Below, in pieces: positions 29,180-31,246 of a stretch of DNA of 52,055 bases. The stretch is from Acidobacteriota bacterium (GTDB lineage Bacteria > Acidobacteriota > Blastocatellia > Chloracidobacteriales > Chloracidobacteriaceae). Position numbers and translations under genes: made by a program. Under the pieces are notes generated by a model. That model was not told the origin of the DNA and ran no database searches. It was given only the letters and a program-made list of their open reading frames with translations. The DNA lies in NCBI GenBank assembly GCA_016208495.1, contig JACQXX010000149.1, forward strand, positions 1 through 52,055, given 5' to 3'. How positions within the stretch are numbered: position 1 is the first letter of the stretch; each line of letters opens with the position of its first letter.

Positions 29180-30220
29180 ATGTCTCACCGCGCTTCGGTA
29201 CGGCTGTGCCTTGGTCTCGCAACCGCTCTTGTGTTTCAGTTTTCACTTTCGATTTTCGGGCAAATACTGCCAGAGCAGATTTCCAGGGAATCAGCCCGGC
29301 TCAAACAAATCGCCACTGAAATTGGATATGAAGATAAGGCCGATCAGGACAATCTTTTACAGGAGATTGAAACCCTTAACCTCGCAACTCAAAAAGGTCT
29401 GGAGCACTATGCTCTCCATCGGTTGTACCGGGTCTGGCCGACGACTTCTGCCTATGAAGCCATGAAGGTCAATGACAAGATTGATAACAAAGATCTGGAT
29501 GGATTTGAAAAACATTGGAAAGCCACCGGTATTGAGTTAGCCGAACAGGAAAAACAGGTTTCATTGAAAAAGCTGGCAACCCAGCCGCTTCTGGTCCGGG
29601 CGCTTGGTGAATCGGCGTTGACTCAGGTTCACCCTTTGTACCAGTCAAGCGAATTATTTGGCCAAAATACGGCCCCAATTTATGGACGTCATTACCTTGG
29701 GCTGGCTCAAGGGAATCTGACATTCACACTGTATTGTCAAAACCTCAGCTTTCCAAAACCTGCCCCGTCACCAGCGCTTCGCTCGTTTGCGCCAGAACTC
29801 AAAAAACTTGAAGCCCAGGTCATCGAAGGCTATAGCAAGCCTGAATCGAAAGAATTAAACACTGTCTACATCGTGGCCAACGTCACGTTGAAGCAAGCCT
29901 GGGACCTCGAAAAAGAAAAACGCTACGCCGGAGAGCTATTCCAATTGCTCGAAGCCACTCGCGTGATGGGTTTTGTTGCGGCCAAAGCCAAAGACCCGCA
30001 ACCGTTGGCCGACCAGCAGGCCCAGCTTGCCCGGTGGAAGCAACGGCTCAAAACCGCCCCTGGCGACCAGAGTCTTGGATTGATGTTTCTCGAACAGGCC
30101 GAATATGTGCAGGGTGTTTTTTCCAAATCCAACAACCCTGACGATCTCCGACGCAGCACAGCCGTGCTGGAGCATGTGTTGCCGCTCTATGCCTCGCTGT
30201 GGAAAGTAAAAACAACATGA
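29180..30220 (+). CDS. Exported helical protein of unknown function, operon partner of the thioredoxin-fold gene
   Basis: 346 aa from ATG 29180, with AGAGGAAC upstream. The signal peptide is about MSHRASVRLCLGLATALVF to SIFGQ, so it is periplasmic or secreted. The mature part is mostly alpha-helical and charged, with no catalytic motif recognised. Segments such as LQEIETLNLATQKGLEHYAL, ARWKQRLKTAPGDQSLGLMF and LRRSTAVLEHVLPLYASLW suggest TPR-like helical hairpins, though I cannot fit a defined repeat. Its stop overlaps the next start (ATGA), so translation is coupled to the candidate selenoprotein. A role in envelope redox biology or as a binding scaffold is speculative. Confidence 0.8.
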   Translation: MSHRASVRLCLGLATALVFQFSLSIFGQILPEQISRESARLKQIATEIGYEDKADQDNLLQEIETLNLATQKGLEHYALHRLYRVWPTTSAYEAMKVNDKIDNKDLDGFEKHWKATGIELAEQEKQVSLKKLATQPLLVRALGESALTQVHPLYQSSELFGQNTAPIYGRHYLGLAQGNLTFTLYCQNLSFPKPAPSPALRSFAPELKKLEAQVIEGYSKPESKELNTVYIVANVTLKQAWDLEKEKRYAGELFQLLEATRVMGFVAAKAKDPQPLADQQAQLARWKQRLKTAPGDQSLGLMFLEQAEYVQGVFSKSNNPDDLRRSTAVLEHVLPLYASLWKVKTT

Positions 30221-31098
30221 AAATTTTTCAGGGATTGATTCTCATCCTGGGCCTGCTCTGGTTTGGCACAACCGCCACCGCCCATCCACCACAATCAAAA
30301 ACCAAAAAAGCAAAGTCCGCCATTCTGACCGTGACGCTGGTCCGCTGGCCATACACCTGAGGACTCTCTGACCCGGCAAGTTTGCTGGTCAAAGATGTCG
30401 TCAATCGGTATCCCGGAAAAGCCGAATTTGTCAGCCTCGATTGGGGCAACTCCGAGCTTCCCAAGCGCTATGGCATCACCAAATATCCAGTGGTGTTTGT
30501 CGGTGATGTCCTGGTCGCCAAACCCGAAGACTTTGGCGGATGGGGCGTGACCGAGTCCAAATACGGACCCATTAGCGAGAAGGCCAACCAGGAGCGATTT
30601 AAACAGGATTTGGCCCGAATGATTGATATTCTGCTGGCCAATCCCAATCAGAAACCGCTGGTCAACAAAGTCGGTGCAACCTCAAAAGAACCGACGGCGC
30701 TTCCGGACTTTGACTGGAAAGACATTGACGGCCAGCCACTCAAATCAAGCGAACTGGCCGGGAAAATTACGATTGTGGAATTTTGGGCGACCTGGTGCCC
30801 GCCCTGTCGCTCAACATTAAGCTGGCTCGGAGAACTCAAAGCTGAGCATCCTGACCAGCTCAATATTGTCGGGATTGCAATTGATTCGGAAGAAGCCAAA
30901 ATCAAGGAAATGACCGACAAGCTCCGGCCTTCGGTTCATATCGTCAACGGTTCAAAAGATCGGATTTCGAAATTCGGCACCATCACCAGCGTTCCAACGC
31001 TCTATGTGTTTGATCAAAATGGAAAGCTGGTACAGGCGTTCTATGGCGCCCCACCAGACCTCCACGCCAAAATCAAAAAGGTGCTGGAGCAGTTGTAA
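30217..31098 (+). CDS. Exported tandem thioredoxin-fold protein with in-frame TGA (candidate selenocysteine) and a TlpA-like CPPC domain
   Basis: The ATG at 30217 overlaps the previous stop. Residues 1-22 form a signal peptide (IFQGLILILGLLWFGTTATA). The frame meets TGA at 30358-30360 (codon 48) and then continues open to 31098; with readthrough the product is 293 aa. TGA sits where a thioredoxin active site belongs: strand AILTVTLVRW, then PYT-TGA-GLSDPA, helix LLVKDVVNRY, strand AEFVSLDW, then YGITKYPVVFVGD with the cis-proline region at Pro91. The second domain (about 165-293) is TlpA/ResA-like, with FWATWCPPCR (Cys194, Cys197), a cis-Pro segment SVPTLYVF and DQNGKLVQAF. After the TGA there is no ATG with a ribosome site that would retain the first domain; TTG 30382 lacks one. 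Cys-free motif T-U-G-L-S would be a one-selenium site. The alternative is a nonsense mutation or a base error. Confidence 0.7.
30358..30391 (+). promoter_or_regulatory. Candidate bacterial SECIS element at the in-frame UGA
   Basis: UGA (30358-30360) is followed by TGACC (30369-30373) paired with GGTCA (30387-30391) and GCA (30376-30378) paired with TGC (30383-30385), closing loop AGTT (30379-30382). That gives 8 base pairs, a G at the second loop position and 18 nt from UGA to the loop. These values fit the usual description of bacterial SECIS hairpins. The pairing was found by eye. Confidence 0.5.
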
Positions 31099-31246
31099 TA
31101 CCATTTAGGGTTTAGGGTTCAGGGTTCAGGGAAACCAGGTTATACCATTTTGGAATGAACCTATTGCATTACGGGGAAGCTAAATTATTGAAAGAATTGT
31201 ATTTCCCTGAACCCTAAACCCGATACCCTGAACTCAAAATGGTATT
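31097..31246. terminator. Convergent-gene boundary: family A element (31142-31245) flanked by inverted GGGTTCA/TGAACCC heptamers
   Basis: GGGTTTAGGGTTCAGGG (31108-31124 and onward) faces CCCTGAACCCTAAACCC (31205-31221), giving a long hairpin. Inside and overlapping it, ATACCATTTTGG (31142-31153) and CAAAATGGTAT (31235-31245) delimit a 104-bp family A element whose last base is the stop codon of the leftward gene. It probably serves as a bidirectional terminator. Confidence 0.65.

Follow-up and report, generated by a model that had tools for sequence, protein, structure and literature searches.

A reading frame that opens at ATG 30217 of the window (the whole stretch of 52,055 nt analysed here, contig C149 of an Acidobacteriota genome) meets a TGA at codon 48 (30358–30360) and then continues for 245 sense codons to a TAA at 31096–31098. 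The question raised by this locus is whether the TGA ends the protein or is decoded as selenocysteine (Sec), and, if decoded, what kind of protein results. An earlier, sequence-only reading had proposed a selenoprotein, and the in-frame TGA and long continuation that it reported were borne out by reading the frame. The readthrough product shows, in order, a signal-peptide-like start, the motif V-R-W-P-Y-T-U-G-L-S-D-P-A, the segment Y-G-I-T-K-Y-P-V-V-F-V and a second domain carrying W-C-P-P-C (residues 193–197). The features of the locus are as follows.

29180–30220, + strand: partner protein of 346 aa, predicted to be exported and all-helical (221.6 bits to a profile of the N-terminal parts of fused relatives); the start, ATG 29180, was picked by eye
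30217–30220, + strand: four-base overlap, ATGA, of the partner stop and the selenoprotein start
30217–31098, + strand: selenoprotein gene, 293 residues plus stop if TGA 30358 is Sec
30217–30282, + strand: predicted signal peptide, about residues 1–22, read by eye from the sequence
30322–30639, + strand: Sec thioredoxin-fold domain, residues 36–141, motif VRWPYT-U-GLSDPA, delimited by alignments and by AlphaFold2 and structure matches
30358–30360, + strand: TGA codon 48, assigned to selenocysteine (TGA in 15/15 strong relatives and 36/37 scan loci)
30373–30388, + strand: apical SECIS hairpin, consensus 6 bp plus a covarying R-Y pair; in the window fold the stem extends to about 30362–30400 with small bulges
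30379–30382, + strand: SECIS apical loop AGUU (GGUC in 19/46 relatives), 18 nt past the UGA
30487–30489, + strand: Pro 91, expected to be the cis-Pro facing Sec; invariant in two alignments, cis predicted
30697–31095, + strand: TlpA/ResA/CcmG-like thioredoxin domain, residues 161–293 (Pfam AhpC-TSA, 4.7e-15; structure match 3gl3)
30796–30807, + strand: CPPC redox site, residues 194–197, the proposed resolving dithiol (C194, P196 and C197 invariant in 15/15)

The ATGA overlap likely couples translation of the partner and the selenoprotein. The upstream frame (29180–30220) itself terminates with TGA, confirming that this codon is an ordinary stop elsewhere in the window, and a recoded genome is therefore unneeded as an explanation.

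Decoding of the in-frame TGA

When 396 genomes of the phylum were searched for the Sec domain, 19 gave a match at E ≤ 0.01. Strong relatives (E 4.2e-27 or better) are found in 15, each with exactly one in-frame TGA, while the four weak matches (L035–L038, E 0.003–0.01) are TGA-free CGPC thioredoxins and were taken out of all counts. The 14 relatives are 45–59% identical to the window Sec domain, with conservation on both sides of the TGA. Genome contigs were also scanned for two peptide patterns that do not cover the TGA codon, [LI]SDPA[SG]LL[VAI][QKR] and G[VI]x[RKG]YP[AV][VI]FV. The 91 matching stretches gave 37 confirmed loci (by recorded taxon, 27 in Acidobacteriota, 9 in Planctomycetota and 1 in Armatimonadetes), and the codon at the Sec position is TGA in 36 and TGC in one, the Armatimonadetes locus L062. 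A single TGA at codon 48 in all 15 strong relatives and 36 of the 37 scan loci is far beyond chance.

The merged set comprises 52 loci, or 47 distinct ones after removal of five with identical 90-nt motif-region DNA (L047, L051, L052, L055 and L057); 46 of the 47 have TGA and the other is the TGC orthologue L062. The motif R-W-P-[YF]-T-U-x-x-S-D-P-A is present in 45 of the 46 TGA genes (L039 has R-W-A), and all 46 have Ser at +3 from Sec. Since the same TGA occurs in 46 distinct sequences, sequencing error cannot explain it. With a TGC paralogue (L080, described below) added, the homologues carry Sec or Cys at codon 48, consistent with the earlier proposal. At least 4 of 392 Planctomycetota genomes and at least 1 of 201 from Armatimonadota carry the family, with up to 12 and 23 candidates per genome scored, respectively, and the viral contigs searched held no relatives. 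Five loci assigned to Planctomycetota (L042, L045, L056, L068 and L069) nest in an otherwise Acidobacteriota branch, which may reflect horizontal transfer or mis-binned MAGs.

The Cys orthologue L062 falls among the Sec rows of the tree (support 94/80 and, in a second tree, 83/75). It lies on a long branch, so that a Sec-to-Cys direction of change is only suggested. Its genome carries selA, and loss of Sec at this locus is therefore not explained by loss of the machinery.

Codons +6 to +9 after the TGA read GCA-(AGT or GGT)-(TTG or CTG)-CTG in all 46 distinct TGA genes, and codon +5 is only ever CCA (25) or CCG (21). Further downstream in these genes, GCA accounts for 6.6% of Ala codons, AGT for 7.0% of Ser, GGT for 9.4% of Gly and TTG for 11.1% of Leu. 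Synonymous identity reaches 100% at codons +6, +7 and +9 (46/46), and is at most 0.83 at the other positions between +1 and +44. Together, these codons build a hairpin with the family form CC[A/G]GCA-[A/G]GU[U/C]-UGCUGG. The loop pair covaries: AGT is accompanied by TTG in 27 genes and GGT by CTG in 19, an exchange of A-U and G-C that is concordant in 46/46. On a tree built without the motif residues, this exchange involves at least four changes, always on both sides of the pair. The number of independent pairs is few, i.e., two on starred branches and four on all branches, and the two tested were concordant.

Pair counting over 45 nt (44 distinct rows) gave 98.7% paired cells, compared with 50.0% for the best slid version. 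The covariation score was 0.212; shuffling gave a mean of 0.142, and none of 500 shuffles scored as high. Two of the five pair measures were not above the shuffles (both-side changes, 1 versus 1.0; further pair types, 2 versus 3.0), and the outermost hairpin pair fails in 4 of the 44 rows. Folding of the window sequence gave z values from −1.9 (121 nt) to −3.5 (61 nt), and, small bulges aside, the loop and apical stem are preserved in the minimum-energy form.

Constraints on bacterial SECIS (bSECIS) elements are given in the 2026 review PMC13188914: a loop of 3–9 nt, a stem of 4–16 bp, a spacing of 16–37 nt and an MFE of −7.5 or below. A G is required among the first two loop nucleotides, most often in the context N1-G-[G/U] with N1 and N2 paired. 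The window hairpin lies within these constraints, having the loop AGUU, 18 nt spacing and a consensus stem of 6 bp, and its MFE is −12.3 (35 nt) to −24.4 (61 nt) kcal/mol. Across the family, 45 of the 46 hairpins reach the MFE limit of −7.5 in 45 nt, L022 being just short at −7.3 kcal/mol. The SECIS of an E. coli expression construct reads ggttgcaggtctgcacc in the excerpt used of PMC3834832. The 10-nt apex at the centre of the E. coli SECIS, GCAGGTCTGC, is identical in 19 of the 46 family hairpins, and the variant GCAAGTTTGC is found in the other 27. No SECIS terms were found in PMC8659212. At the hairpin site of the Cys orthologue L062 the sequence is CCC-GCG-AGC-CTG-CTT, which has no significant fold (z −0.18); the hairpin is absent where Sec is absent.

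The window genome (8.38 Mb, 99.16% complete) encodes one each of SelA (555.5 bits), SelB (344.8 bits, or 370.3 with a neighbouring match) and SelD (398 bits), all over the curated cut-offs. There is one tRNA-Sec gene, scoring 63.1 bits against a gathering score of 47, and ARAGORN identifies the same gene as tRNA-SeC with anticodon TCA. The Sec machinery that a selenoprotein at this locus depends on is thus present in the genome. A second frame with a single TGA occurs on another contig of this genome (L006:1–1914, G000:C161, TGA at L006:1600–1602). It encodes a TPR region and a ResA-like domain with a W-U-G-P-C site (...FWASW-U-GPCR...), and the hairpin following its TGA has z values of −2.4 in 51 nt and −2.0 in 61 nt, with GUU at the apex. 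The machinery and this second protein indicate that Sec decoding is seemingly in use in the window genome. Short tandem-like intergenic repeats, gggttcagggttcaggg / accctgaaccctgaaccc, were seen in the same genome at 31100–31245 of the window and at L006:1918–2155.

All 15 family-bearing genomes of the phylum search have selA at E 2e-129 or better; over the whole sample, 250 of 396 genomes have it above the cut-off. Of the genomes in the pattern scan, 33 of 37 have selA, and no match was found in the four that carry L054, L058, L064 and L067.

Taken together, UGA 30358 is almost certainly decoded as Sec, at residue 48, by ordinary bacterial Sec decoding. That the TGA is a true stop, in a pseudogene, through a sequencing error or between two proteins made by termination and restart, is highly improbable: translation table 11 does end the frame at 30360, and the remainder could be read from a TTG at 30382, but a protein restarted there would have neither the first strand nor the active site. 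Synonymous sites past the TGA are frozen, and the 46 distinct TGA relatives, with their conserved flanks, speak strongly against this explanation.

Domains of the selenoprotein and the helical partner

The AlphaFold2 model of the window protein, built on the 15 relatives (mean pLDDT 81.6, pTM 0.58), places codon 48 between a strand (37–43) and a helix (53–62), with Y-P-V at 90–92. This agrees with the thioredoxin-fold logic that had been read on either side of the TGA. The model of a fused relative, L053 (pLDDT 88.1, pTM 0.88), is nearly all-helical to residue 338, after which a thioredoxin fold follows. Among the matches listed, this fold aligns to thioredoxins with VIA-align Z scores of 7.9–10.2, the best natural thioredoxin being 1v98 (Z 9.3, rmsd 2.3, 84 aligned). 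A Foldseek search of the PDB with the fused model gave a best E of 0.25 and nothing at E 0.001, and the best PDB profile match of the Sec domain has an E of 0.01. Compared with the Thioredoxin family (PF00085), the Sec domain has the fold and, in place of the C/U-x-x-C site, U-x-x-S. The earlier placement of the TGA where CxxC is expected is accordingly right as to the active-site loop, but not as to the second Cys, which is absent. HMM alignments conflict on the register of U, pairing it with the first Cys of CxxC in 7c3f and with the second in 3tco. The helix starts three residues after U in the fused model and five in the window model; the former favours U as the equivalent of the first Cys.

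No NCBIfam 20.0 model matches the Sec domain alone at E up to 1, although selenoprotein models are included, and Pfam returned only an irrelevant match (E 0.15). The domain aligns with 2p0g (Z 8.3, rmsd 2.6, 79 aligned), a small thioredoxin-like protein of the Selenoprotein W-like (Rdx) family, but this score is tied with those of ordinary thioredoxins, and any likeness is thus one of fold only; the motif of that family is CxxU, in contrast to P-Y-T-U here, and there is no match to PF10262. Other UxxS selenoproteins, according to Table 1 of PMC13188914, the part of that source relevant here, are rhodanese form 1, arsenate reductase and a cd02970 peroxiredoxin-like protein. These share Ser at +3 with the present family, but the Sec domain does not match PF00581 or TIGR00014.

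Pfam matches to the window protein are confined to the second domain, from residue 161 (AhpC-TSA, 4.7e-15, with Redoxin, Thioredoxin_8 and others), as are the matches listed in the structure searches with the window model. Residues 157–293 align to 3gl3 with a VIA-align Z of 20.0 (rmsd 1.7, 135 aligned), a likeness to the ResA/TlpA/CcmG oxidoreductases that extends to CPPC and is restricted to this domain. The CPPC site was correctly recognised by the sequence-only reading. The domain is of redoxin type with CxxC, over the Pfam cut-off, as in TlpA/ResA-like proteins, and its scores for the NCBIfam subfamilies ResA (64.4 of 170 bits) and TlpA (59.6 of 230 bits) are below cut-off. Sec thioredoxins and TlpA/ResA-like selenoproteins of the UxxC type (NCBIfam WAxxUGC_long, NF041054) also have Sec in the active-site loop of a thioredoxin fold. 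The window protein, unlike these, has its Sec in a first domain apart, within U-x-x-S, and the TlpA-like domain retains its Cys CPPC; the score to NF041054 is 40.2 bits (cut-off 300) and comes from the second domain only. Both the Sec site and the CxxC of the next domain, which is CPPC, CGPC or CVPC, are invariant in the 15 aligned proteins.

In 37 of the 47 distinct loci, a partner-like domain precedes the Sec (or Cys) domain within a single fused reading frame. The profile of the fused N-terminal parts matches the upstream ORF of the window over residues 11–342 (hmmsearch against a one-sequence database, E 1e-69), and by this comparison ORF 29180–30220 is a split-off form of that domain. The overlap with an unfamiliar exported protein, as first described, stands, but the upstream protein belongs to the same module and is not unrelated. 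Other split loci have a helical-domain frame just upstream (L021, L022, L031/L055, L033, L039, L040, L058 and L066), and in L073 the order is reversed, i.e., Sec domain, CxxC domain and helical domain (151.8 bits). Searching the 396 genomes with the helical domain recovered the same 15 as the Sec domain, one match each, with up to five candidates per genome scored. No Pfam or NCBIfam model matches the 26 helical-domain members consistently, the best matches being MIT in two (E 0.0086) and YaaA in one (E 0.0004), and few rows of the L053 structure searches span this domain. Beyond the module, no neighbour family occurs in more than 5 of 38 loci (stop-to-stop frames of at least 120 aa).

One planctomycete genome (G430), which carries the Sec locus L073, also encodes the Cys paralogue L080 (454–2517, minus strand, about 4.4 kb from L079), with the motif W-P-F-L-C-R-L-S-D-P-A-S. 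Its parts are an ECF-type sigma factor (Pfam over cut-offs: Sigma70_r4, 2.3e-12; Sigma70_r2, 1.6e-7; ECF), a hydrophobic stretch noted by eye, the Cys domain and a helical domain (76.6 bits), and it has no CxxC. From this arrangement, L080 possibly joins a sigma factor bound to the membrane to a redox sensor that is exported, and it is the strongest indication that sensing may also be among the functions of the module.

Proposed mechanism and alternatives

SelB with Sec-tRNA almost certainly binds the hairpin just past UGA 30358, so that Sec is inserted at residue 48. In the proposed mechanism, the signal peptides would export both the selenoprotein and its helical partner from the cytoplasm. 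Outside, the Sec selenolate, with Ser replacing the resolving Cys, would attack an oxidised substrate (such as a disulfide or a peroxide), which the helical partner may bind or position. Reduction of the oxidised Sec would then fall to the CPPC pair in the TlpA-like domain, and electrons would be supplied to CPPC by a DsbD-type membrane transporter; the window genome does encode a DsbD_TM membrane protein. The Sec/Cys relay within one polypeptide that the sequence-only reading had envisaged would be part of this scheme. The redox steps as a set, from export and Sec attack through CPPC resolution and DsbD-type recharge to recruitment of substrate by the partner, are judged to have an even chance of being correct. 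For the reading as a whole, i.e., a selenoprotein of an apparently undescribed family with a mechanism such as this, the probability is put at roughly 0.85.

A narrower form of this reading is that the Sec domain is a peroxidase of 1-Sec type, with CPPC as its dedicated reductant, and not a disulfide or isomerase enzyme. The 1-Cys peroxidases have a single nucleophile and no resolving Cys, which the lone Sec of this domain resembles, and AhpC-TSA is the best Pfam match of the CPPC domain. No peroxiredoxin or glutathione peroxidase model of Pfam or NCBIfam matches the Sec domain itself, and the peroxidase assignment is at present rather unlikely.

Somewhat less probable again is a selenoprotein whose Sec domain binds or senses a metal, a metalloid or a redox signal and does not act as a turnover enzyme, with Ser and the helical partner serving recognition. 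The U-x-x-S site without an intradomain resolving Cys would suit such a role, as would the sensor-like design of L080, in which a Cys domain and a helical domain without CxxC stand behind an ECF-type sigma factor. Against this, all 15 aligned members have CPPC, CGPC or CVPC in the domain that follows, as a redox partner should.

Position of the family among selenoproteins

By its sequence, this family of presumably exported redox selenoproteins, mostly from Acidobacteriota and almost always with Sec, is apparently undescribed. The inventory in Table 1 of PMC13188914 (2026; 119 families by its own count) has no fitting entry; its UxxS rows are those given above. Nor was a description of the family found among the open-licence papers listed on selenoproteins of Acidobacteria/Acidobacteriota, on new selenoprotein families or on UXX-star, including the excerpts used of PMC1794560, PMC9312934 and PMC12013277. 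Judged from sequence comparisons, the family is a new one in a well-known class, and its unusual traits are the almost exclusive use of Sec, the layout of U-x-x-S with a separate CPPC, and the dedicated helical partner.

According to the deep-Sep paper, Cys homologues now seem to exist for every known selenoprotein, and a selenoprotein that lacks them may be filtered out. With 46 distinct Sec genes against one Cys orthologue and one Cys paralogue, the present family nearly breaks this rule and likely falls in that blind spot. Tentatively, it may represent a nearly Sec-obligate exported selenoenzyme, with a built-in CPPC reductant and a helical substrate-binding partner, for a reaction on some extracytoplasmic substrate in which Cys almost never suffices. 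If that is true, such an enzyme would escape finders that demand Cys homologues, and more Sec-only families would await discovery.

Annotation easily makes a truncated gene, or two separate pieces, of a selenoprotein gene, and the finders in present use depend on Cys homologues. The family described here gives two unmodelled domains a context and provides a further, presumably exported, Sec protein that carries a Cys reductant site of its own. Its Sec and Cys members also form a natural pair, of which one has a SECIS and the other lacks it. Sec use looks widespread in the phylum, judging by the occurrence of selA in the sampled genomes, so more such proteins may lie there.
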